Assembly: GCA_027618475.1 (NCBI GenBank)
Contig: JAQCEJ010000046.1
Location: 1 to 39,909 of the forward strand
Reading direction: 5' to 3'
From: Planctomycetota bacterium
GTDB lineage: Bacteria > Planctomycetota > Planctomycetia > Planctomycetales > Planctomycetaceae
Length of the DNA stretch: 39,909 bases
The notes below the pieces were generated by a model. It saw nothing but the letters and a program-made list of their open reading frames with translations, did not search any database and was not told the origin of the DNA. This document shows, piece by piece, positions 9,341 to 30,038 of the stretch. The position numbers were made by a program, and so were the translations under genes. Each line of letters opens with the position of its first letter. The first letter of the stretch is position 1.

Positions 9341-12300
9341 ATGTCTATTCGACCTGTATTCATCATGTCCCTGGTCGTGATTGGTTATATCGGGGTGCTG
9401 TGGGGCAAGGCCGAGCAGCCTGAAACCGAACGACGGAGCGAAGCGAAAAAACAGTTCGATGCCGGCAACTATAACGACTCCTATAAAATCTATCGTGATC
9501 TTGCGATCGATCCCGAATCTGATTCGTTGCAGGTCGGCGGTGATCTCAATATGGCGCGCCAATGCCTGTACAATTTGGGACGTCCCGATGAAGTCGACAA
9601 CTTCCGCGAAGAGGCCATTGTCGTTCACGCGAAAAACTGGCGATTACTCCAGACCGCAGCGCAAAGTTACATCGACGAACAACATTTTGGCTATATCATT
9701 GCAGGCGAGTTTTATCGGGGAAATCGTCGCGGCGATGGCCGGTTCGTCAGTTCGCTCGATCGCGACCGCGTCCGTGCTCTGCAGCTGATGCAGCAGGCAT
9801 CACAACTGCTCGCAGGCGAACCGAATCGCGATGCAGTCGCATCGTTCTACCTCGATGATGCCCGCATGTGGATGCAAGGACGAGAATACGGTAACGCCTG
9901 GAAGCTGCAAACGCTCACCGACCTGGCAACTCTCCCCGATTACGAAGAAAGTCCGCAGTACTTTATGTACGGTCGTCGGGGGTACGGAGGTTGGGGAGGT
10001 GGCGATACGCAGCGCGGCGCTCCCGTCGATGCCGAGGGAAACCCGGTATTTTACTCCGTCCCCGAAACTTATGAGGCCGCGACTAACGACGGCGAGCGGT
10101 GGCGATGGTTTTTGTCACGGGCAGAACAGGTGCAGCCTAATCTGAAACCGCGTGTCACACTGACGATTGCCGATTTCTTGTGGACGCAATTCGGCGTACA
10201 GACGATGGCTCAGTTCGGGTACGTTCCGCCGGCGGGGCCGGTTGATGAGGATGACGATATCCACGAAAAAACCGGACCGTATGCGTTGCATACTCTCGAA
10301 GACGACGAAACGATCGCAAGGCTGGCAACAGGGATCACGCGATTCACACTGCCGAAAGAATTCAGTTTCGTGGCGATGTATCAAGAGGTCGCCTCGGGAG
10401 ACAAAGGGAGTTATGCACAACAGGCCCTCGAAAAATTAGCGCAGGTGTTCGAAGATCGCCGTCAATATCCGCGAGCCGCCGATTACTGGAAAAAATGTAT
10501 CGCCGATTACGGGCCCGGCAACAACAACTATCGTGAACAACGTCTGCAACAAATCATCGGTAACTGGGGCCGTTTCGAGCCCGGGCAGATGCAGACGGCA
10601 GGAGAAGGGGGAATCGTCAACTATCGCTATCGCAACGGCGAGAAGGTGACGTTCGAGGCGTTTCCCATCGATATCGACAAACTCTTGAGTGACGTCAAAG
10701 CTTACATCAAGTCGCGCCCGAAACAACTCGACTGGCAGCGATTCAACCTCGACGACCTCGGTTATCGCTTTGTTCAAGAGAATCAACAGCAATATGTCGG
10801 CGAACGGGTCGCTCAATGGCAACTCGAACTCGATCCCCCTGCCGATCACTTCGACGACCAGATGACCGTTACCACGCCACTCCAAAAAGCAGGGGCTTAT
10901 CTGGTCACGGCACAACTTGAAGGGGGCAACATCAGCCGCATTATCGTCTGGCTGACCGATACCGTGATCCTCAAGAAACAGCTCGACAACGGGGTGTACT
11001 ATTTCATTGGCGACGCCGAGACCGGCCGACCCGTTTCCGATGCAAACATCGAATTTTTCGGCTATCAACAAAAGCATATCAAAGATAACAACTACGATAT
11101 CATCACATCGAATTTTTCGGAATCGACCGACGACGACGGCCAGGTCTTTCCCGATCCGAAACTTCTGCAGCAGAATTTCGCCTGGCTAACGATCGCCCGT
11201 ACGAAACAAGGCCGCCTCGCTTACATGGGATTTCGCGGCGTGTGGTACGGCCGTTATCACGACCCTGACTATCTGCAGCACAAAGTCTTTGTGATGACCG
11301 ACCGACCGGTCTATCGCCCCTCTCAGCCGGTCAAATTCAAGTTCTGGATTAATACGGCACGGTACGATCAGGAGGGGCCATCGCCGTTTGCAGGAAAGGA
11401 ATTCCCGATCGTCGTCACCAATCCTCAAGGTGAGAAAATTTTCGAACAGACACTAAAAGCGGACGACTTCGGCGGATTCGACGACGAATTCACACTCGGT
11501 GAAGAAACGATGCTCGGGCAGTATTCCATTCATCTGAATCCCGAGATGCCGGTTTATCATCCGCTCGTCGCCGGACAGAACGTCCCCGTCAATGGCGGCG
11601 GTTCGTTTCGTGTCGAAGAATACAAGAAACCCGAATACGAAGTGAAAATCGACGCTCCCTCCGAACCGGTGATGCTCGGAGAGAAAATCACCGCGACGAT
11701 TAACGCCAAATATTACTTTGGCGCACCAGTGACAAATGCGAAGGTGAAGTTCAAAGTTCAGCGCACGTCTTACGATTCGCGCTGGTATCCCGCCGGACGT
11801 TGGGACTGGTTGTATGGGTCGGGATACTGGTGGTTTTCGCCCGATTACGCCTGGTACCCCGGTTGGCACCGTTGGGGATGTGTCCGGCCGATTCCACCCT
11901 GGTGGGGTCAGTCGCACGCCCCCCCCGAACTGGTGCTTGATGAAGAAGTTGAGATCGGTCCCGACGGCACGGTGAACATCGAAATCGATACCCTTCCCGC
12001 CAAAGAACTTCATGGCGATACCAGCCATAAATATGAAATTACCGCCGAGGTCGTCGACGAATCCCGCCGAACGATCGTCGGTACGGGACAGGTACTGGTC
12101 GCGAAAGAACCGTTCAAGGTTTTCACTTGGCTCGATCGTGGACACTATCAGGTCGGCAGCAACATTCAGGCCAGCTTCAAGGCCCAAACGCTCGACGAAA
12201 AACCGGTACAAGGGACCGGTAAATTAACGTTGTATCGCATCACCTACGACGAAAAGGCAGAACCGATCGAAACGGCCGTCGAAGAATGGAACGTCGATAC

Positions 12301-15300
12301 CAACGAACGAGGAGAAGCGTCGCAAAAATTGACGGCTTCAGAGGCTGGTCAATATCGTCTCTCGTATCAGGTCACAGACGCCGCCGGCCACATGCAGGAG
12401 GGGGGATATCTCTTCGTTATTACTGGTGAAGGATTCGACGGACACAATTTTCGATTTAACGACATCGAATTGATCACCGAGAAAAAAGAATACGAACCGG
12501 GTGAAACGGTCCGTGTGCTCATCAATACCAACCGCGCCGGCAGTACGGTGTTGCTGTTTACGAGGCCGACGAGTGGTTTGTATCTCAAACCACTCGTGCT
12601 GCACCTCGACGGCAAGAGTACCGTACACGAGATTGCGGTCGTGAAGAAGGACATGCCGAACTTCTTCGTCGAAGCCGTAACAGTTGCGAACGCTTCGGTT
12701 CACAGCGAACTGAAAGAGATTGTTGTCCCTCCCGAGAAGCGGATCGTCAACGTCGAGGTGAAACCCTCGGCGGAGGAATATCAGCCCGGCAAACCGGCGA
12801 ACGTTACGGTTAAACTGACCGATCTGATGGGAAACCCGTTTGTCGGTTCGACCGTTGTGAGTATCTACGACAAGAGCGTCGAATACATCTCAGGTGGTTC
12901 GAACGTTGGCGACATCAAAAAATTCTTCTGGGAATGGCGTCGTCGTCATCATCCGCAGACCGAGAGCAACCTGACACACTATTTCTACAACCTGCTCAAG
13001 TCTGGTGAAACGGGAATGGGAAACCTTGGCACCTTCGGCAATCTCATCCTGCAAGAAGAACAATTGAACGCCGCCAATTTTCGCGGGAGCGACCGCCGTC
13101 AGAATCGAATGAGAAAGGCCTCTAGTGAAAGTCGAATGGCGGCAGGAAGCGCAGCACCAATGGCAGCTCGAGAAATGCAAATGGCCGACGGGCTGGCAGG
13201 GCCCCCGAATGCCGACAAAGACTTCAGTTCTGGTAAGCGGCAGGGCGATGGAGATGCGGTCGGAGCGGACCCTGTGGAACCGACCGTTCGAAAAAACTTC
13301 GCCGATACCGCCCTCTGGATCGGAAGTCTTACAACCGATGCCGAGGGATTGGCCACCGTCTCGCTGACCATGCCCGAAAATCTGACGACATGGAAAATAC
13401 GCACGTGGGCACTGGGTGATGGAGCCCGTGTCGGTGAAGGAACGTCTGAAGTCGTCACCACAAAAAATATCATAGTTCGACTTCAGGCCCCACGCTTCTT
13501 CACCGAAACCGACGAAGTCGTGCTCTCGGCGAACGTGCATAACTACCTCGACGTCGACAAAGTGGTTGAAGTCGTTCTCGAACTTGAAGGAGGGATGCTC
13601 CTTCCTGACGGTGTGGAACTTACCGTGCAACCAGCCGACGCAACGCAAACCGTCAGCTTGACCGAGACGGTTACTATTCCCGCCGGTGGTGAAAAACGGA
13701 TCGACTGGCGTGTGAAAGCGGTCGCCGTCGGCGAGGCCGTCGTTCGCATGAAGGCCCTCACCGATCTTGAATCGGACGCAACCGAGATGACATTCCCGGT
13801 GTACGTGCACGGTATGCTGAAAATGGAGTCGTTCACTGGTTCGATTCGCCGGGGCAAAGAGTCTACGTCCTTTATGCTTTCCGTTCCAGAACGTCGTCGC
13901 ATTGCCGAAACGCGACTCGAAGTCCGCTATTCTCCGACGCTGGCGGGGGCGATGGTCGATGCGCTGCCGTATCTGGTGAGTTATCCTTACGAAACAACCG
14001 ACACGACGTTGTGCCGCTTCCTGCCGACTGTCATCACGCAGAACATCCTTAAACGGATGAATCTCGACCTGAAAGCCATTCAGGAAAAACGAACGAATCT
14101 CAACGCTCAGGAAATCGGTGACGACGCCGAACGGGCCAAACAATGGAAGCAATACAAAGACGAAAACCCGGTCTTTGACGAAGCCGAAGTCGAACGAATG
14201 GTTAAACGGGGCGTCAACGACCTCACAAACCGCCAGCTCACCGATGGCGGCTGGGGCTGGTTCTCGGGCTTTGGAGAACACAGCCAACCCCATATGACAG
14301 CACAGGTCGTCCACGGCCTGTTCCTCGCTCAAGAAAACGGAGTTACTCTCGTCCCCGATGTCTTACAACGAGGCGTCAACTGGCTGACGAATTATCAGAA
14401 TGCCGAAGTCCAGAAGTTGAAAAACTTCCCCGACGAGAAAAAGCCTTTCAAACAGTTCGCCGACAACCTCGATGCGCTGGTGTTTATGGTTCTTGTCGAG
14501 TCGGGGGTTAACAACGACGAGATGAAAGAATTTCTATACCGCGACCGCACGCATCTGTCGGTCTCCGCGAAGGGAATATTCGGCCTCGCGCTGCACAAAC
14601 TCGACGACGCCGAAAAACTCGATATGATTGTCCGCAACATCGATCAGTTTCTCGTCCAGGACGACGAAAACCAGACCGCGTACCTCAAACTCCCCGGCAA
14701 CGCCTTCTGGTGGTTCTGGTACGACGACGAAGTCGATGCCAACTCGTATTATCTCAAACTCCTCTCGCGTACCGATCCGCAAGGAGAAAAGGCATCGGGG
14801 CTCGTCAAGTACCTGCTCAACAACCGCAAGCACGCCACCTACTGGAAGAGCACGCGAGACACGGCTCTTGCCGTCGAAGCCCTGGCCGAGTTTCTTGTCG
14901 CCAGTGGCGAAGCACAACCCGATATGACACTTGAAGTCGTCGTCGACGGCAACGTTGTGCAGACGGTAACGATTAATTCCGACAACCTGTTCCAGTTCGA
15001 TAACAAGGTTGTGCTGGAAGGGGAACAACTCACGATCGGCGAACACACGGTCGAACTCCGCCGCACAGGTGAGGGACCGTTGTATTACAACGCGTATCTG
15101 ACGAACTTTACGCTCGAAGAGTTCATTACGAAAGCCGGGTTGGAAATCAAAGTCCAGCGGAAGTTCTACAAACTGGTCAAGGATGACAAAGCTGTCGATG
15201 TCGCGGGAACGCGCGGTCAGGCCGTCAGTCAGAAAGTCGAAAAGTACCTCCGTGAAGAGATCGACAATCTGAGCACTCTCAAGAGCGGCGAACTCGTCGA

Positions 15301-15613
15301 AATCGAACTCGAAATCGACAGCAAGAACGATTACGAGTACATCGTCTTCGAAGACATGAAAGCCGCCGGTTTCGAGCCGGTCGATTTGCGCAGCGGTTAT
15401 AATTCGAATTCGATGGGAGCGTATATGCAGTTTCGCGACGAACGGGTGACGTTCTTCATCCGCCGCTTGCTGAGAGGCAAGCACAGCGTCAGTTACCGTA
15501 TGCGAGCCGAGATTCCGGGACAGTTCAGTGCCTTGCCGACCACCGGTTTCGCCATGTACGCCCCGGAACTCAAAGGGAATTCGGACGAAATCAAACTCGC
15601 GATTGAAGATTAG
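9341..15613 (+). CDS. Alpha-2-macroglobulin family protein without the thioester motif
   Basis: A 2090-residue protein starting at an ATG with AAGGAAG upstream. Residues ~5-22 are hydrophobic and can act as a signal or anchor. Residues ~30-470 are helical and TPR-like (KKQFDAGNYNDSYKIYRDLA). Macroglobulin domains follow; VFVMTDRPVYRPSQPVKFKF near 650 is the MG2 signature. An insertion at 815-857 holds ten Trp. A Met/Ala/Gly-rich linker (~1250-1310) resembles a bait region. DTALWIGSLTTDAEGLATV near 1322 opens the conserved A2M domain. The thioester domain is present (~1540-1860), but where the family has CxEQ after YPYG the sequence is TTDT (residues 1552-1555 in YPYETTDTTLCRF), so no covalent thioester trap can form. 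Bacterial A2Ms inhibit proteases in the periplasm or at the surface, often beside PBP1C; no such partner is here. Some bacterial paralogues, such as E. coli YfaS, also lack the thioester. Confidence 0.93.
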   Translation: MSIRPVFIMSLVVIGYIGVLWGKAEQPETERRSEAKKQFDAGNYNDSYKIYRDLAIDPESDSLQVGGDLNMARQCLYNLGRPDEVDNFREEAIVVHAKNWRLLQTAAQSYIDEQHFGYIIAGEFYRGNRRGDGRFVSSLDRDRVRALQLMQQASQLLAGEPNRDAVASFYLDDARMWMQGREYGNAWKLQTLTDLATLPDYEESPQYFMYGRRGYGGWGGGDTQRGAPVDAEGNPVFYSVPETYEAATNDGERWRWFLSRAEQVQPNLKPRVTLTIADFLWTQFGVQTMAQFGYVPPAGPVDEDDDIHEKTGPYALHTLEDDETIARLATGITRFTLPKEFSFVAMYQEVASGDKGSYAQQALEKLAQVFEDRRQYPRAADYWKKCIADYGPGNNNYREQRLQQIIGNWGRFEPGQMQTAGEGGIVNYRYRNGEKVTFEAFPIDIDKLLSDVKAYIKSRPKQLDWQRFNLDDLGYRFVQENQQQYVGERVAQWQLELDPPADHFDDQMTVTTPLQKAGAYLVTAQLEGGNISRIIVWLTDTVILKKQLDNGVYYFIGDAETGRPVSDANIEFFGYQQKHIKDNNYDIITSNFSESTDDDGQVFPDPKLLQQNFAWLTIARTKQGRLAYMGFRGVWYGRYHDPDYLQHKVFVMTDRPVYRPSQPVKFKFWINTARYDQEGPSPFAGKEFPIVVTNPQGEKIFEQTLKADDFGGFDDEFTLGEETMLGQYSIHLNPEMPVYHPLVAGQNVPVNGGGSFRVEEYKKPEYEVKIDAPSEPVMLGEKITATINAKYYFGAPVTNAKVKFKVQRTSYDSRWYPAGRWDWLYGSGYWWFSPDYAWYPGWHRWGCVRPIPPWWGQSHAPPELVLDEEVEIGPDGTVNIEIDTLPAKELHGDTSHKYEITAEVVDESRRTIVGTGQVLVAKEPFKVFTWLDRGHYQVGSNIQASFKAQTLDEKPVQGTGKLTLYRITYDEKAEPIETAVEEWNVDTNERGEASQKLTASEAGQYRLSYQVTDAAGHMQEGGYLFVITGEGFDGHNFRFNDIELITEKKEYEPGETVRVLINTNRAGSTVLLFTRPTSGLYLKPLVLHLDGKSTVHEIAVVKKDMPNFFVEAVTVANASVHSELKEIVVPPEKRIVNVEVKPSAEEYQPGKPANVTVKLTDLMGNPFVGSTVVSIYDKSVEYISGGSNVGDIKKFFWEWRRRHHPQTESNLTHYFYNLLKSGETGMGNLGTFGNLILQEEQLNAANFRGSDRRQNRMRKASSESRMAAGSAAPMAAREMQMADGLAGPPNADKDFSSGKRQGDGDAVGADPVEPTVRKNFADTALWIGSLTTDAEGLATVSLTMPENLTTWKIRTWALGDGARVGEGTSEVVTTKNIIVRLQAPRFFTETDEVVLSANVHNYLDVDKVVEVVLELEGGMLLPDGVELTVQPADATQTVSLTETVTIPAGGEKRIDWRVKAVAVGEAVVRMKALTDLESDATEMTFPVYVHGMLKMESFTGSIRRGKESTSFMLSVPERRRIAETRLEVRYSPTLAGAMVDALPYLVSYPYETTDTTLCRFLPTVITQNILKRMNLDLKAIQEKRTNLNAQEIGDDAERAKQWKQYKDENPVFDEAEVERMVKRGVNDLTNRQLTDGGWGWFSGFGEHSQPHMTAQVVHGLFLAQENGVTLVPDVLQRGVNWLTNYQNAEVQKLKNFPDEKKPFKQFADNLDALVFMVLVESGVNNDEMKEFLYRDRTHLSVSAKGIFGLALHKLDDAEKLDMIVRNIDQFLVQDDENQTAYLKLPGNAFWWFWYDDEVDANSYYLKLLSRTDPQGEKASGLVKYLLNNRKHATYWKSTRDTALAVEALAEFLVASGEAQPDMTLEVVVDGNVVQTVTINSDNLFQFDNKVVLEGEQLTIGEHTVELRRTGEGPLYYNAYLTNFTLEEFITKAGLEIKVQRKFYKLVKDDKAVDVAGTRGQAVSQKVEKYLREEIDNLSTLKSGELVEIELEIDSKNDYEYIVFEDMKAAGFEPVDLRSGYNSNSMGAYMQFRDERVTFFIRRLLRGKHSVSYRMRAEIPGQFSALPTTGFAMYAPELKGNSDEIKLAIED

Positions 15614-23175: not shown

Positions 23176-23363
23176 GAAGTTCGGGATGTGAAGCTGAATC
23201 AAGCGGCAAATACGCAGAGGACGAACATTGTTATTTACCAGAATCTCCTCATCGACCAGCCTGCACATCACCAAAGGGGTGATAATGGTCCAAGTTCTGC
23301 TTCTTCCTGATGAGGATCGACAACACGACGTCTCTGGGAATTCTGCCCCCAGCGGGAGCGATC

Positions 23364-24104
23364 ATGAATGACGGTCAAGACGATTCCGCTCTTCCCGATG
23401 AGTTGACCGCCTGTGAAGAACTGATCGGATACCGGTTCCACGATCGCCGGCATCTGCAACTCGCGCTGACGCATGCCTCTGCCGCGAAAACCCGAACCGA
23501 ATCGAACGAACGACTGGAGTTTCTCGGGGATGCCATCTTGGGAGCGATCGTCTGTTCGCTGTTATATCGGACATACACAACATCGTTGGAAGGAGAGTTG
23601 ACGCGTCTGAAGTCGATGCTGGTGAGTCGATCGACATGTGCCCGCGTGGGGCAACGCTGGGGATTCGAACAATTCCTCATTATGGGGAAAGGGCTCAGCA
23701 GCGAAGAGACGTTGCCGTCGTCCATTCTCGCCGGGGTGGTCGAATCGCTCATCGGTGCATGTTACCTCGACGGAGGCATCGACGCCGCGCGAAGCGTCGT
23801 GATGAAGCTGATGGAAGACGATCTTTCGGTCGTCACCGACTCGACGGAAGGAAAGAACTACAAAAGCCTTCTGCAGCAGATCGCACAGAAGCATCTCAAC
23901 GAAACGCCGGTTTATCGGCTGCTCGACGAACAGGGGCCCGACCATTCGAAGTGCTTCAAAGTTTCCGCCGTCGTCGGACACCGCATCTTCCCGGCGGCAT
24001 GGGGGCCGAACAAGAAAGAAGCCGAACAACGTGCGGCCCAGAACGCGCTCGACGAATTAGAAGGAAGAGACGACCAGACGACGAACGAGATGCGTGCGAA
24101 TTAA
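23364..24104 (+). CDS. rnc: Ribonuclease III
   Basis: A 246-residue protein from the ATG at 23364, which has GGGAG at good spacing; an ATG 18 codons upstream is possible but has no such site. The nuclease domain carries the signature [13 protein letters not shown] with the catalytic acidic residues. The second acidic cluster is in [18 protein letters not shown], where the Glu of VVESLIGA is the invariant metal ligand. From about residue 170 a double-stranded RNA-binding domain follows ([43 protein letters not shown]). The enzyme cuts double-stranded RNA in rRNA precursors and regulatory RNAs in the cytoplasm. It is monocistronic here and ends before a strong hairpin. A family-typical length and all motifs make the call firm. 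Confidence 0.96.
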
Positions 24105-24144
24105 TTCGACGTTCTAAGCGTTAGAAACAGCCAGTAGAAATAGC

Positions 24145-24174
24145 AAAGGCGGTCGAACGAATTCGACCGCCTTT
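24145..24174. terminator. Bidirectional terminator between rnc and the K/A-rich peptide gene
   Basis: A 13-bp perfect stem (AAAGGCGGTCGAA and complement) closes on a CGAA tetraloop, with A-rich and T-rich flanks built into the stem ends. It lies 41 nt after the rnc stop and 43 nt beyond the stop of the opposing small gene. A second, weaker 6-bp stem (ACCGAG/CTCGGT) sits at 24189-24206. Confidence 0.85.
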
Positions 24175-24216
24175 ACTCGTTGTTGCAAACCGAGACTCAA
24201 CTCGGTGAGAAGTTCA

Positions 24217-24297
24217 TTACTTCTTCTTCTTGGCTGCCTTTTTCTTGGGTGCTGCCTTCTTTGCTGCTGCTTTCTTTTTTGCTGCTTTCTTTGCCAC
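24217..24297 (-). CDS. 26-residue Lys/Ala-rich histone-H1-tail-like peptide
   Basis: A tiny frame starting with GTG at 24297, preceded by GGAGG with a 7-nt gap, one of the best ribosome sites in the window. The peptide is built only of Lys, Ala and a single Pro after the start residue (pattern AKKAAKKKAAAKKAAP, then more Lys/Ala, ending in four Lys). This is the composition of histone H1 and chlamydial Hc-type tails and of the C-termini of some bacterial HU proteins, which bind DNA non-specifically through charge. The same frame stays open upstream to an ATG at 24477 (86 residues), but that extension lacks the composition and would place the strong ribosome site inside the gene. It is followed by hairpins. 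DNA compaction is inferred from composition only. The very small size is odd. Confidence 0.6.
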   Translation of the reverse strand: MAKKAAKKKAAAKKAAPKKKAAKKKK

Positions 24298-24966
24298 TTT
24301 CAATCCTCCTTCCAGAGAGTTTTGCGTGACAGTCTTGCCGCTGGCTTCCGGGCAAATATCGGCTTGACTTATCACACCACTACGAATCCCTTCCGGCTTA
24401 TCAACCCTGACAAGCCGCGTGTTATCTCCCGTCAGCTGATCGCGTCGTCGGTTTGTTGTTGGTGCAATGACTCGCAACTCACGGTCGACACATCTTTTCT
24501 AATCGGCGATAACACCGAATTGTGAATCATCCTAAGCATTTCTTAAATTTCTGCAACTATTTTTTGCCCTGTTTCTTGAATTCCGAGAAGGATTTTTAAA
24601 AGTCGGTTTCGCCGCACGCGCTTCGATAATGGCATCGCGCGAACATTGCGATCGAACAAACGGCGATCAACAAGCGCGCGATGCACATCAACTCAAAACA
24701 TCGCACAACAAAAAACCACAAAAAACACCATGACATTTGCATAAAAATGCGATCGCGTTTTTACGACGCCATGCGCAACGCACAATGTTGTTTGTCGACG
24801 ATAACGAATTACACATCGCGTGCGGCACAAATAATCCGATCAAAACAATGATCGATAGACCACTTCACCAATTCAAAAATTTTGAAAAATTATTACGATG
24901 CGCGCACCAAAACGATGGTTTTGACGTCTTTGCACGACGACGCGCGACCGACGACGTCGCGTGGCG
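24298..24966. other. Gene-less region of unusual composition upstream of the K/A-rich peptide gene
   Basis: About 670 bp without a credible gene. From ~24540 onward the sequence alternates A/T runs with CpG-dense words (GCGATCGCG, GCGCGATGC, CATCGCGCG, GATGCGCGC), unlike the flanking coding DNA. A possible minus-strand promoter (TTGCAG, 16 nt, TAGGAT; about 24531-24558) would give the small gene a leader of over 200 nt. A 77-codon plus-strand frame at 24737-24970 shows no recognisable family. Confidence 0.5.
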
Positions 24967-25803
24967 CTAACATGTTGAAGTGCGCACGTCGTTCAAAATT
25001 CGTTGCAGGTACTCGATGCTTTCGCGCGCGATCCGCTCGCATCCGGGGCTGTAATCAAACGGCTCTACCGAGACCCAGCCATCGTATCCGGTCTCGATCA
25101 GCGCTTGGATGATTGGACGAAAGTTGGTTTCTCCCATCCCCGGACCCAGCAGGTTCGTATCGTTGACGTGAAAGTGTCCCACTTTGCCGCGATAACGGTG
25201 AATCAGCGTCGGAATCGGATCGGATTCCGACCCGAGCATCGCTTTGACGTCCTGATGCAGCACGAAATTCGGCTGATTGACCTTGTCGATCAGCTCCATC
25301 GCGTCGGCGCAAGTCAGCACGAAGTCGGTCTCCTTCGAAGTGAGCGGTTCCATGCAAATGGTGACGTTGAGCTTCGCCAACGCCGGTAGACACCTCGAAA
25401 AAACGTCGGCAGCGTAATCGTAGGCCTGTTCGCGGCTGACACCGGGGAGCAGATTTCGCTGAAACGGAGAACCGTGAACCATCAGCGTCCCCCCCAGAGC
25501 GGCACACGCCTCGCCGAGTTGAACGAGATAGTCGGACGTCGCATGCCGGACCGCTTCATCGGGGCTGGTGAGGTAGAGTCCTTCAGTCTTCGCGAGAAGC
25601 CAGTGCAAACCGATGACTTGCAGCCCGGCGGCCTCCGCCTGCCGGCGCATCGTTTGAAGTGTCTCGCGCGGCACATCGCCGATTCGTGCAGCCAGAGTGA
25701 AAGGAGCGACTTCAATTCCCTGATATCCGGTCTTGGCAATGAATTCGCATTGCCGTTCCCAGTTCCACCCTTCGAACAATTCCTGACAGATCGCAAATTT
25801 CAT
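24967..25803 (-). CDS. Sugar phosphate isomerase/epimerase (TIM barrel, AP-endonuclease-2 family)
   Basis: A 278-residue protein of the xylose-isomerase-like TIM barrel family, the normal length. It starts MKFAICQELFEGWNWERQCEFI and has GYQGIEVAPF for strand 2. The four metal ligands of the family are in place: Glu152 (ICMEPLT), Asp185 (LHQDVKAM), His212 (GHFHVND) and Glu247 (VSVEPF). The enzyme should isomerise or epimerise a small sugar or hydroxy-acid with Mn2+ or a similar ion; hydroxypyruvate isomerase and 3-epimerase relatives share this layout, so the exact substrate is open. There is no signal peptide. It is a single gene on the minus strand, flanked by the odd-composition region downstream and 480 bp of non-coding DNA upstream. 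Confidence 0.92.
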   Translation of the reverse strand: MKFAICQELFEGWNWERQCEFIAKTGYQGIEVAPFTLAARIGDVPRETLQTMRRQAEAAGLQVIGLHWLLAKTEGLYLTSPDEAVRHATSDYLVQLGEACAALGGTLMVHGSPFQRNLLPGVSREQAYDYAADVFSRCLPALAKLNVTICMEPLTSKETDFVLTCADAMELIDKVNQPNFVLHQDVKAMLGSESDPIPTLIHRYRGKVGHFHVNDTNLLGPGMGETNFRPIIQALIETGYDGWVSVEPFDYSPGCERIARESIEYLQRILNDVRTSTC

Positions 25804-26283: not shown

Positions 26284-27783
26284 ATGAAAACGATATCAAG
26301 GACTGCCGTTGTCCTGGGGATTCTGTTCTCCGCGATGAACGGAACGACTGCCATGGCAGGCTACCTGGGTGCCGCCCGATACGCCTGCTGTCCGACGGAA
26401 GCCTGCGAGGATTCCGGGGACTATTGTGAAGCTCGAACCTGCTGCAAAACCAGGTACAAGACCGTTCGCAAGGTCGTGTGGGAGAAGAAAGAATACACCT
26501 GCACGCGCACCGTCTATGACACGGTTTGCGAACAGTGTCCCGAAACATATACCAAGAACGTGTATCGCACCTGCTATCGCGACGAAAGCTACACGGTCTG
26601 CAAACCCTGCTACAAGACTTGTTATAAAGACGAGTGCTACACGGTCTGCAAACCCTGCTACAAGACCTGCTACCGCGATGAGTGCTACACGGTCTGCAAG
26701 CCCTGTTACAAGACCTGCTACCGCGACGTCACTTGCAAGGTCCGTAAGCCTGTTTACAAGACCTGCTACAAAGACGTCTGCTACACCGTCTGCAAACCGT
26801 GCTACAAGACCTGTTACAAAGACGTCTGCTACACCGTTTGCCGTCCCGTGACGCAAACGTGCTACAAAGACGTCTGCTGCACAACGTACAAAACCGTTCG
26901 CGAGAAGCGCTACAAAGACGTCTGCTATACCATCTGCAAGCCCTGCAGAACGTACAAAGACGTTGAAGTCTGCTGCGGCGAATGGAAGACCGTGAAGGAG
27001 CACTGCCCCGGTCGAGTGATCGAAAAGTGCTGTTGTGAAAAGGGAACCTGGGAATGGGACGCTGAAAAATGCTGCTGCGTCTACAAACCCGGTTGCTGCA
27101 AGACCGTAAAGGTCCAGTGCCCCGGAACGACCGTCTGCCGCAAGGTCTGGTGCCCGAAAACAGTGACAAAGCGTGTCTGCAGCGTCACGATGGTGAAGGA
27201 AGTCAAGCACTGCCAGATTCCTTACATCGTCTGCCGTCAGATTCCCTGCACGACGACGAAGCGGGTTCCCTACTGCAAGACGACCTACGTCAAGGACGTC
27301 TGCACACGACGGGTTCCTTACACGACCTGCACGATGATTCGCCAGACCTGCACGAAACGGGTTCCTTACACGACCTGCACGATGACCGAACATTGCATTA
27401 CGCGTCGGGTTCCCTATACGACCTGCACGATGGTCAAGCAGACCTGCACTCGCAAGGTGCCGTACACGACCTGCACGATGGTCAAGCAGACCTGTACCCG
27501 CAAGGTGCCGTACACGACCTGCACGATGGTCAAGAAGACCTGCACCCGCAAGGTGCCGTACACGACCTGCGAAAAGGTTTGCTGCACCCGTATGGTGACG
27601 AAAAAACGCTGCGTACCGCGTGAGGTCTGCAAGACCTACTCGGTGTGCGTGCCACGCGTCGAATGCTGCAAAGTGCCGGTCAAGTGCCGCGTTAAATGCT
27701 GCCGAACGTGTGAACCACAAGACTGCTCGGCATCAGCTGATGCCGGGGACGTGATTGTCTCGGATGAAAGTCATGGTGGCTAA
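26284..27783 (+). CDS. YTV-type cysteine-rich repeat protein of the planctomycete cell wall
   Basis: A 499-residue exported protein with a signal peptide (residues 1-24, ending TAMA). It contains about 78 Cys by hand count, plus many Lys, Thr and Tyr. Two arrays share a 16-residue (48-bp) period. Array 1 (residues 94-221) has eight units of the form YKTCYKDECYTVCKPC, whose CYTVC core is the YTV motif described for planctomycete wall proteins. Array 2 (343-437) has six units of the form RVPYTTCTMVKQTCTR. Between them lies a segment with CCC and CC clusters (222-342), and a further Cys-rich tail ends in an acidic Ser/Asp-rich stretch. YTV proteins are thought to form a disulfide-linked protein layer outside the cell. 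The chosen ATG overlaps a shorter out-of-frame ATG. The gene is monocistronic, with a strong terminator. Array 2 is nearly identical at the DNA level, so unit number may vary between strains. Confidence 0.9.
   Translation: MKTISRTAVVLGILFSAMNGTTAMAGYLGAARYACCPTEACEDSGDYCEARTCCKTRYKTVRKVVWEKKEYTCTRTVYDTVCEQCPETYTKNVYRTCYRDESYTVCKPCYKTCYKDECYTVCKPCYKTCYRDECYTVCKPCYKTCYRDVTCKVRKPVYKTCYKDVCYTVCKPCYKTCYKDVCYTVCRPVTQTCYKDVCCTTYKTVREKRYKDVCYTICKPCRTYKDVEVCCGEWKTVKEHCPGRVIEKCCCEKGTWEWDAEKCCCVYKPGCCKTVKVQCPGTTVCRKVWCPKTVTKRVCSVTMVKEVKHCQIPYIVCRQIPCTTTKRVPYCKTTYVKDVCTRRVPYTTCTMIRQTCTKRVPYTTCTMTEHCITRRVPYTTCTMVKQTCTRKVPYTTCTMVKQTCTRKVPYTTCTMVKKTCTRKVPYTTCEKVCCTRMVTKKRCVPREVCKTYSVCVPRVECCKVPVKCRVKCCRTCEPQDCSASADAGDVIVSDESHGG
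26563..26946 (+). repeat. Tandem 48-bp coding repeat, array 1 (eight units)
   Basis: Eight consecutive 16-codon units inside the YTV gene. Units 2, 3 and 5 are most alike; units 7 and 8 have diverged most. Confidence 0.85.
27310..27594 (+). repeat. Tandem 48-bp coding repeat, array 2 (about six units)
   Basis: Units of 16 codons with the core GTPCCGTACACGACCTGCAC-like motif (encoding VPYTTC). The three units from about 27454 to 27590 are nearly identical, indicating recent duplication. Confidence 0.85.
27728..27745. repeat. 18-bp perfect palindrome at the end of the YTV gene
   Basis: CGGCATCAGCTGATGCCG lies inside the last codons of the YTV gene. Its half-sites GCATCAGC and GCTGATGC recur in the hairpin just after the stop codon. 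Confidence 0.7.
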
Positions 27784-27954: not shown

Positions 27955-28917
27955 TCAGGACTGAGATCCGAATCGGTCGCCGACGGCGACGGGATATCCT
28001 CGCAGGAATTCTTCCGCTTTCATCGCCCGTTTCCCTTCGGGCTGAATCTGTAGAATCTCGATTTCGCCATCACCGGTTTGGACGAACAATCGCTTGCCAT
28101 CGCATTGCGTCACCGTTCCCGGTGCCTGGCCTGGTGTCGACGACGTGATAAGCGGATCGATCTCGAGCACGATCACACGCAGCGGTTGCCTGCCGTCGTG
28201 ATGCCAGTAACTATACGGTTTGGGCCAAGGCTGCATCGCACGCACGTGACAATCGACCAGCCGCGATTCCTTGCTCCAAACGATCTCCCCTTGCTCTTTC
28301 TTCAGTCGCGGTGCCTTTGTGACGGCCGAGGCATCCTGCATCAACGGCTGGGAGGTTCCGCTGTCGATCTGTTCGATCACGTTTAACGTCAGCGGAACCG
28401 CAAGGTCGGCCAGTCGGAGTTCGAGTTCGCCATACGTCTCTTTCGCATCGATGGGCGTCGAGACCGTTCCCAAAATCGGACCGGCGTCGAGTTGCGGATG
28501 AATGTGAAAGACCGTGATGCCCGTTTCGGTCTCGCCGTTCCAGAGGGCGTATTGAATCGGTGCCGCTCCGCGATATTTGGGCAGGAGCGAAGCATGTACG
28601 TTGATGGCCCCTCGTTTGGGAATCGACAGCAATTCGGCAGAGAGGATTTGTCCGTAGGCCGCGACAACACACAGGTCGGGTTTGAGTTCGCGGAGCGATA
28701 CCAGCCCATCGGGTAAATTGATTCGTTCGGGTTGAAAGACCGGCGTGTTGCGTACTTCGGCCAATTGCTTCATGGGATTGACATGATCGTGATGACCCTT
28801 TCCATGACGATCGGGCTGGGTGAACAAACCGACGATCTCATGAGATGTGCCGTACAATTCGCGAAATGTCGGCAGAGCAAACCGTCCGGTCCCCATCATC
28901 ACCAGTCGAAGCGTCAT
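27955..28917 (-). CDS. fmt: Methionyl-tRNA formyltransferase
   Basis: A 320-residue cytoplasmic enzyme that formylates initiator Met-tRNA with 10-formyl-tetrahydrofolate. The ATG at 28917 was chosen because MTLRLVMMGTGRFALPTF gives the usual start and AGGAG lies upstream; the frame extends 25 codons further without support. The catalytic region is intact: INVHASLLPKYRGAAPIQYA supplies the Asn and His, and HPQLDAGPIL the Asp. GITVFHI and the C-terminal tRNA-binding domain (GTVTQCDGKRLFVQTGDGEI) follow. It lies downstream of def on the same strand, the order found in many bacteria, separated by about 140 nt that contain a hairpin repeat. It converges with the YTV gene. Confidence 0.95.
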   Translation of the reverse strand: MTLRLVMMGTGRFALPTFRELYGTSHEIVGLFTQPDRHGKGHHDHVNPMKQLAEVRNTPVFQPERINLPDGLVSLRELKPDLCVVAAYGQILSAELLSIPKRGAINVHASLLPKYRGAAPIQYALWNGETETGITVFHIHPQLDAGPILGTVSTPIDAKETYGELELRLADLAVPLTLNVIEQIDSGTSQPLMQDASAVTKAPRLKKEQGEIVWSKESRLVDCHVRAMQPWPKPYSYWHHDGRQPLRVIVLEIDPLITSSTPGQAPGTVTQCDGKRLFVQTGDGEIEILQIQPEGKRAMKAEEFLRGYPVAVGDRFGSQS

Positions 28918-29034
28918 CGGTTTTGTTCTCCTGATGATGGTATCGTCACTGACCGTTTGGCTTGGGTCGAGGCTTCTGTGAGCTGTTAGCACATACTAGA
29001 CCGCAGCGCAAGTTTTGAAGTCGCGCTGTATTCA

Positions 29035-29053
29035 CCTCTCCCACCGGGAGAGG
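29035..29053. repeat. CCTCTCCC-type intergenic hairpin repeat, copy 1
   Basis: An 8-bp perfect stem CCTCTCCC/GGGAGAGG with loop ACC, between def and fmt. The same core recurs at 34821-34841, and a relative occurs at 39326-39352. Confidence 0.7.
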
Positions 29054-29056
29054 GTT

Positions 29057-29635
29057 TCACGGTTCCAGCGCTTTAAGGCGTTCTCGCAGTTCATCGTCGG
29101 AAGGGATCGTCCCTTCTTTTTGCTGCTGACGGAAGCGGTCGACGAAATCGAGAATTTTCGGATCCAGTTCATGCCGCACCGTATCGGAGACCCGCTCGAA
29201 AAACATGACTCCGTCAAGGTGATCGGTTTCGTGCTGAACAACGCGGGCCGCCATGTCGGTCAAGGTCACCTGAAATGGAATCCCCTGCAGATCAAACGCT
29301 TCGACGACGACATTGTCGGCGCGCCGGACATGGCCGTAGACTTCTGGCAGACTTAAACACCCTTCTTCGTCTTCGGCACTCCCTTTGCGGCGAATGATTT
29401 CGGGATTAATGAAAACGAATTCTTCGTCTTTTTGTTCCGGATCACATGTGAGATTAACGACGAACAGTCTCCACGGAAGCGCGACCTGGTTGGCGGCGAG
29501 TCCGATGCCGCGGGAGGAATACATAAGATCGAACATCTCGCGCACGCACTCGTGGAGTTGCGGAGATATTCCTTTTACGGGCTTGGATTTCCAAGTCAAC
29601 GCGGGGTGCGGATACTGTACGATTTCAAGCGGCAT
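29057..29635 (-). CDS. def: Peptide deformylase
   Basis: A 192-residue metalloenzyme that removes the formyl group from nascent proteins. The ATG at 29635 gives MPLEIVQYPHPALTWKSKPV, the standard beginning; the frame runs 51 codons further upstream through low-complexity sequence and is probably not translated. All three motifs are intact: GIGLAANQ (residues 43-50), EGCLS (91-95, with metal ligand Cys93) and QHETDHLDG (His135 and His139 as ligands, Glu136 catalytic). The ribosome site is weak. fmt follows on the same strand, so the two enzymes of the N-formyl-methionine cycle are probably co-transcribed. Confidence 0.95.
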   Translation of the reverse strand: MPLEIVQYPHPALTWKSKPVKGISPQLHECVREMFDLMYSSRGIGLAANQVALPWRLFVVNLTCDPEQKDEEFVFINPEIIRRKGSAEDEEGCLSLPEVYGHVRRADNVVVEAFDLQGIPFQVTLTDMAARVVQHETDHLDGVMFFERVSDTVRHELDPKILDFVDRFRQQQKEGTIPSDDELRERLKALEP

Positions 29636-30038
29636 GACCAAACGATGCACAAAAGTGGACGATAAAGACATCACCATCGCGAATACCGGGCAGGAGGTCA
29701 ACCGCCACATCCCGAATGGGGGGTCAGCCCCTCCCGGGTCATGCTGACCATGGCCAGTACCTGCGCCGGCATTGCTGCCACCGCTCATCAGTGACGATGG
29801 ACCTCAGAAATTATACGGTTCGCCATCAGTGCGGTCGAGGATCACGTCCACATACTTATTGTGTTTTTAATCGGTTGACATCCAGTGAGATCGAACCGCG
29901 AAACAGACCCATCCCACGCAGACCGAGGGTTGAAGATCCATCAACCCCGACACCGGCATTGTGGGTGCGCAACGGTAACGTATCACTTGGTCACAAGCGA
30001 TAACCGATTGACGACATCAGGACTTGCCGCACGCGTGA
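29636..30038. other. Intergenic region upstream of def
   Basis: About 400 bp with no credible gene. It contains a GGGG-TCAG-CCCC hairpin near 29717-29730. A TTGACA near 29875 on the plus strand has no -10 partner and no gene to serve. Confidence 0.4.

Follow-up and report, generated by a model that had tools for sequence, protein, structure and literature searches.

The Lys/Ala gene and its neighbours

A very short open reading frame (ORF) coding almost exclusively for lysine and alanine is located on the minus strand of the window (the whole analysed stretch of 39,909 nucleotides from a member of the Planctomycetaceae) at positions 24217 to 24297. It starts with GTG and comprises 26 codons followed by the stop codon TAA. 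The encoded peptide, (M)AKKAAKKKAAAKKAAPKKKAAKKKK, contains 14 lysines, 10 alanines and one proline after the start. A Shine-Dalgarno sequence, AAGGAGG, is found upstream on the same strand (24305 to 24311), with 7 nt between its GGAGG and the GTG, and downstream of the ORF lies a strong terminator-like hairpin of 16 pairs (24142 to 24177, minus strand; folding of 91 nt gave −36.1 kcal/mol and z −5.06). The 26-codon, almost pure Lys/Ala frame (minus strand, 24297 to 24217), the ribosome site and the hairpin after the ORF had all been pointed out in a first-pass annotation made from the sequence alone, and all were borne out. The hairpin is terminator-like on the plus strand as well (24145 to 24174), where it could serve the neighbouring gene rnc. 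A search of the minus strand between 24050 and 25000 revealed no sigma-70-like promoter.

The gene product of rnc (23310 to 24104, plus strand), the convergent neighbour, is ribonuclease III. Upstream, on the strand of the Lys/Ala ORF, a sugar isomerase/epimerase-like TIM barrel protein (PF01261) is encoded at 24967 to 25803 (minus strand). A spacer of approximately 550 bp (24420 to 24966) separates the epimerase gene from the leader RNA described below; no repeat of at least 12 nt was found between 24400 and 25000.

In the family sample of 150 Planctomycetaceae genomes, rnc was found in 141, including the genome of the window. A total of 140 rnc loci were read (the rnc of G060 lies outside this set), two of them having no sequence beyond rnc. 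A Lys/Ala ORF convergent to rnc is present in 22 of the 140 loci, with 69 to 464 nt between the two stop codons, and all 22 ORFs have a ribosome site ahead of a GTG or ATG start. The ORF of the window is among the shortest of them; relatives of 20 to 25 amino acids are encoded in five other genomes.

A structured leader RNA with compensatory base changes

When the sequences upstream of the 22 rnc-linked ORFs were aligned, conservation of a kind not expected for a protein became visible. It belongs to a conserved structured leader RNA of approximately 100 nt, located in the window at 24322 to 24419 (minus strand). Two covariance models were used for searching: R1 was built from 18 leaders without the ribosome site or the ORF, and R2 from those 98 of 100 source sequences that were matched (L020 and L122 were not). 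The leader of the window scores 85.7 bits with R1 and 84.5 bits with R2. It consists of a first hairpin, P1 (24394 to 24417, minus strand; 10 pairs, NGGU-type loop), in which the stem varies and the loop is conserved, a linker, and a second hairpin, P2 (24326 to 24375, minus strand), with six lower and three upper pairs. P2 is tipped by GCCCGGT..CAGCGGC, in the window GCCCGGAAGCCAGCGGC (24337 to 24353, minus strand), the columns of which are invariant or nearly so. Near-invariant amid varying stems, this tip resembles a binding site.

The base pairs of the leader are held by compensatory changes. In a MAFFT alignment of 18 leaders, 14 of the 19 pairs show two-sided changes and 92.9% of the cells are paired, compared to 81.3% after shuffling and 27.5 to 52.2% when the partners are slid by one to three columns. 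Two-sided changes affect 8 of 10 pairs in P1 (helix 1, 94.4% of cells paired) and 6 of 9 pairs in P2 (helices 2 and 3, 89.5% and 94.3% paired). With 88 distinct rows from 98 leaders, in an alignment fitted to the model, all 19 pairs show two-sided changes, and 93.1% of cells are paired versus 75.5% after shuffling and 22.6 to 43.1% with slid partners. Single sequences of eight loci did not always fold into an unusually stable structure (z 0.27 for L062 and −0.23 for L075) or into the consensus shape.

Neither in the window nor in 20 other loci did any Rfam 15 family reach its gathering score. A scan of 24150 to 24700 gave matches to L20_leader (E 0.044; 22.6 bits, the gathering score being 58.7) and to Pseudomon-groES (E 4.1). 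Both matches were taken as chance; the former lies where the ORF ends and the terminator hairpin follows. The existence of both the gene and the leader RNA is well supported.

Occurrence of leader and ORF in the Planctomycetaceae

At E ≤ 0.1, R1 matches 114 of the 150 family genomes, once in 112 and twice in two of them. In the 103 matched genomes that were examined, a Lys/Ala frame starting with (G/A)TG follows approximately 25 nt after the leader without exception (one frame being cut by the contig end). Nineteen of these 103 loci were already known as Lys/Ala loci linked to rnc, 18 of which had been used for training R1; the other 84 were not selected for their content, and in five of them the ORF had already been found by the peptide search. 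Eleven matched genomes (G080, G082, G084, G093, G102, G106, G119, G121, G138, G145 and G147) and the second match of G143 lie outside the examined set. Of the 36 genomes negative with R1, those matched by R2 at E ≤ 0.01 all carry the ORF (16 of 16), and among 20 weaker matches it was present in 3 of the 14 examined. R2 thereby adds 19 genomes with leader and frame, so that the leader is found in 133 of the 150 genomes; the ORF was seen in 122 of these, the remaining 11 being those outside the examined set. One further genome, G013, has a Lys/Ala ORF adjoining rnc (L122) and a P2-like motif, and its leader was missed by the model. No recognisable P1 is present at this locus, and its leader could be either a variant or an evolutionary intermediate.

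Neither a convincing leader nor an ORF next to rnc was detected in 16 of the 150 genomes. As near-complete genomes (G007, G050 and G060) are among these, the locus can be lost, or diverged or moved beyond detection. Behind matches at chance level (E 0.24 to 4.2; 41 rows), no ORF was found in any of the 30 cases examined. Sampling at the level of the order gave 132 matched genomes out of 150 at E ≤ 0.1, all of them belonging to the same family. A phylum-wide sample of 392 genomes gave 35 matched genomes, 25 within the family and 10 weak ones outside (E 0.002 to 0.045); an ORF was found at none of the five examined among these 10. Laxer filters applied to 12 class-level genomes yielded only matches with E ≥ 0.24, with no ORF where examined. 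Used as a protein query, the peptide itself finds only 7 of the 150 genomes, its own included, and is therefore a poor probe for the Lys/Ala family.

For comparison between loci, a set of 114 loci was compiled from 95 R1-matched genomes and the 19 R2 loci kept for carrying the ORF; 11 R2 matches lacking the ORF (E 0.053 to 0.86) and six weak R2 rows were left out, and eight further R1-matched genomes were examined separately. Among these loci, the succession of leader, ribosome site and Lys/Ala frame starting with (G/A)TG recurs in 47 genera. The position of the leader ahead of a single gene family is fixed, and the pairing of leader and ORF, like its family-wide occurrence, is established by computation. 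At the same place throughout, 85 of the 114 loci have GTG and 28 have ATG as the start codon; in the last one (L223), where the frame begins 20 nt from the contig end, it is GTG too. A Shine-Dalgarno-like tetramer ending 6 to 9 nt ahead of the start was found in 111 of the 114 loci. It is missing in L179 and L228; the third locus, L223, was misread in this count.

These loci also decide which start is used. According to the first-pass annotation, translation might begin at an ATG at 24477, and conservation of 59 upstream codons as protein would make the short form a mere tail, in this case of an 86-amino acid protein. The frame of the window is indeed open up to 24477, the codon at this position being TTG and not ATG. 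In 104 of the 114 loci, however, a stop codon interrupts the frame between the start of the leader and the start codon of the ORF; the window belongs to the other 10, in which the frame happens to be open. The distances from leader start to start codon are spread over all three classes modulo three (40, 44 and 30 loci), the conservation upstream of the ORF is that of base pairing, and the 59 codons overlap the structured RNA at 24322 to 24419. The long form is ruled out by the in-frame stops, leaving it a negligible probability, and the short form is the real one, as computed over the whole set.

The epimerase gene is located upstream on the same strand in 88 of the 114 leader loci (36 genera; 159 to 1294 nt between), and 18 of the 88 also have the convergent rnc. 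The first-pass suggestion to look between rnc and the epimerase gene in related genomes thus held good for these 18 loci, and 70 more have the epimerase gene alone. In G085, the leader stands apart from the epimerase gene. In a search with the epimerase against named genomes, a leader was found downstream on the same strand within approximately 0.8 kb in 64 of the best 80 of 537 records, and the ORF was present in all 63 loci checked (L312, which ends inside the leader, was left out). Eight rows had first been dropped from the epimerase alignment (L186 and L209, which held a stop, and six others). The best 80 of 537 records include Schlesneria, Fuerstiella, Planctomicrobium, Planctomyces, one Rhodopirellula sp. 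and Thalassoglobus neptunius, and some of their titles look misassigned (e.g. Candidatus Kuenenia). The NCBI taxonomy places Thalassoglobus and Schlesneria in the Planctomycetaceae.

Downstream of the ORF, no gene on the same strand was found in more than two genera (top 25 clusters, flanks of approximately 1.5 kb), frames over the convergent rnc aside. A short ORF behind a structured leader and ahead of a hairpin would also be expected of a leader peptide or attenuator, in which lysine-rich translation stalls ribosomes and controls a downstream neighbour. The lack of a common downstream gene on the leader strand speaks against this explanation, which also misfits the loci with a convergent downstream gene, the window included, and an ORF length spanning 19 to 125 amino acids; we regard it as highly improbable.

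Properties of the encoded proteins

The 110 complete proteins of the set (the ORFs of L192, L195, L215 and L223 run off the contig end) have 19 to 125 amino acids with a median of 51.5, which is a more than sixfold spread in length. The ORF of the window belongs to the short end of this range, together with others among the 24 proteins of 30 amino acids or less. Lysine (49.4%) and alanine (33.7%) are followed by proline, threonine and valine, and neither aspartate, glutamate nor cysteine occurs in any of the 110 proteins. Lysine is encoded by AAG (2324) more often than by AAA (598), and all four alanine codons are used. Eight close pairs differ by 33 synonymous and 17 nonsynonymous changes, corresponding to a pN/pS of 0.17, a crude estimate as a single pair contributes 13 of the 17 nonsynonymous differences. 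The close pairs show purifying selection. This suggests that genes for Lys/Ala proteins as short as about 20 residues can be genuine and under selection. A gene this tiny could easily be missed by annotation, and low-complexity filters would tend to hide it.

These data also bear on the question of whether the RNA, as a regulatory or dual-function RNA, might be the main product and the Lys/Ala frame secondary. The length of the leader (81 to 107 nt) is kept better than that of the ORF, and its apical motif is near-invariant, as would be expected in that case. On the other hand, an ORF follows each well-scoring leader examined, its codons change synonymously under protein constraint, and a leader kept beside a destroyed ORF was not seen in any of the genomes examined. 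An RNA acting mainly by itself therefore appears improbable.

The peptide of the window has no match in Pfam or NCBIfam. Eight members of the family were compared with the profiles of lysine-rich, H1-like proteins, and none reached the cut-off of PF07382 (HC2; 40 bits), NF038053 (80) or NF038052 (135). The best scores were 30.9 bits (PF07382) and 24.9 bits (NF038053), both for L048, which weakly resembles these profiles, and 20.6 bits for NF038052. Hc1 (PF07432) was not matched in any of four genomes searched (G000, G073, G085 and G135) nor by the Lys/Ala proteins themselves, and a 91-amino acid member has no sequence match among solved structures. In the first-pass annotation, the peptide was likened to a free-standing histone H1/Hc tail. 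A free-standing gene it is, while the likeness to H1 and Hc2 is one of composition and stays below the cut-offs of Pfam and NCBIfam.

Similar to HC2/Hc2 of Chlamydia (PF07382, NF038052) and to NF038053, the proteins consist of Lys/Ala-rich repeats varying in number. They differ from these HC2/H1-like proteins in size (19 to 125 amino acids, compared to profile lengths of 194 to 201) and in that their gene has a dedicated structured leader RNA. Eukaryotic linker histones have C-terminal tails rich in lysine, alanine and proline; the Lys/Ala proteins lack a globular domain, are far shorter, and resemble them in composition only. To our knowledge, the manner in which the condensed nucleoids of planctomycetes are packed is an open question. 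In the main text of a transposon-sequencing study on Planctopirus limnophila, the word histone does not occur (PMC10632474).

Possible roles of peptide and leader

The reading we favour, and consider moderately probable as a whole, is that of a gene for an H1-tail-like polycation, usually present as a single copy in Planctomycetaceae, the translation of which is tuned by its own leader. The very small, highly cationic and presumably disordered protein would act as a free-standing histone H1 (Hc2-like) tail, neutralising and condensing DNA or another polyanion. Binding to polyanions is expected because the polycation contains neither acidic residues nor a foldable core. The histone-tail reading is plausible. 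The mRNA would start with, or contain, the dedicated leader of approximately 100 nt, followed by a short segment that may partly hide the ribosome site. Most likely, the leader would tune translation of the peptide upon binding of a protein or ligand to the putative binding site at the tip of P2. A tiny Lys/Ala gene behind a conserved folded leader suggests a peptide for DNA or polyanion packing that is under control.

The partial masking of the ribosome site is consistent with its computed accessibility. In 107 distinct sequences, the site is unpaired with a probability of 0.42, compared to 0.57 with shuffled surroundings, and the value is lower in 41 of 47 genera. The pairing is mostly local, with the segment just before the site rather than with the leader. 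A third covarying hairpin around the ribosome site was considered and rejected, as strong covariation was not found at fixed columns (91 sequences); the lowered accessibility alone remains. In the segment between leader and start, small inverted repeats (e.g. AACTC/GAGTT, CTCTT/AAGAG and GTAA/TTAC) were observed around the ribosome site, for instance in L183, L188 and L197. Their registers change and some are mutually exclusive; they could be alternative conformers.

The target of the peptide might also be polyphosphate, rRNA or the ribosome instead of chromosomal DNA, with the leader still acting as a regulator. A pure Lys/Ala chain is expected to bind without sequence specificity, and a precedent exists in AlgP of Pseudomonas aeruginosa, which has an H1-like, lysine-rich, low-complexity C-terminal tail with KPAA repeats and localises to polyphosphate granules or, in a strain deleted for the polyphosphate kinases, to the nucleoid region (PMC9239181). 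The tail of AlgP is described there as the C-terminal domain of a larger protein (PMC9239181); the Lys/Ala protein, in contrast, is all tail. Against such a target it may be held that the only widely conserved neighbours within 1.5 kb (top 25 clusters) are the epimerase gene and rnc, a weak argument, as the neighbourhood need not tell. Overall, such a target in place of chromosomal DNA seems unlikely, if clearly less so than an RNA acting mainly by itself.

More tentatively, and with doubt prevailing, the leader may represent a new class of regulatory RNA that gauges the amount of free polycation in the cell, or else that of a free polyanion (for example polyphosphate, rRNA or naked DNA). The Lys/Ala protein or a partner would then bind the GCCCGGT..CAGCGGC tip of P2 and hide the ribosome site. 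A single RNA and a single unfolded peptide would thus form a minimal autoregulated thermostat of chromatin charge. In its architecture, the leader resembles the cis-regulatory leaders and riboswitches of Rfam, with a structured 5′ element in front of one gene family, covarying helices and a conserved loop motif, and it constitutes an RNA class for which no counterpart was found in Rfam 15. The Rhodopirellula-1 candidate motif, compared here only by its entry in the published listing, is given there for Proteobacteria and Planctomycetes and may be identical to the leader (PMC2864571). In contrast to that entry, the leader of the Lys/Ala gene was found in a single planctomycete family in the genomes searched. 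Among the open-access papers listed, no title or abstract described the gene or the leader, most subscription papers and all supplements being outside the scope of this search.

With a candidate packing peptide encoded in about nine in ten of the sampled family genomes, usually as a single copy, a direct deletion test is possible. Elsewhere in the window, a cysteine-rich protein with YTV repeats (PF07639, four stretches) is encoded at 26284 to 27783 (plus strand), and a formyltransferase (PF00551/PF02911) beside a peptide deformylase (PF01327) at 27955 to 29788 on the strand of the Lys/Ala gene (minus). An open reading frame of 2090 amino acids spans positions 9341 to 15613 (plus strand).
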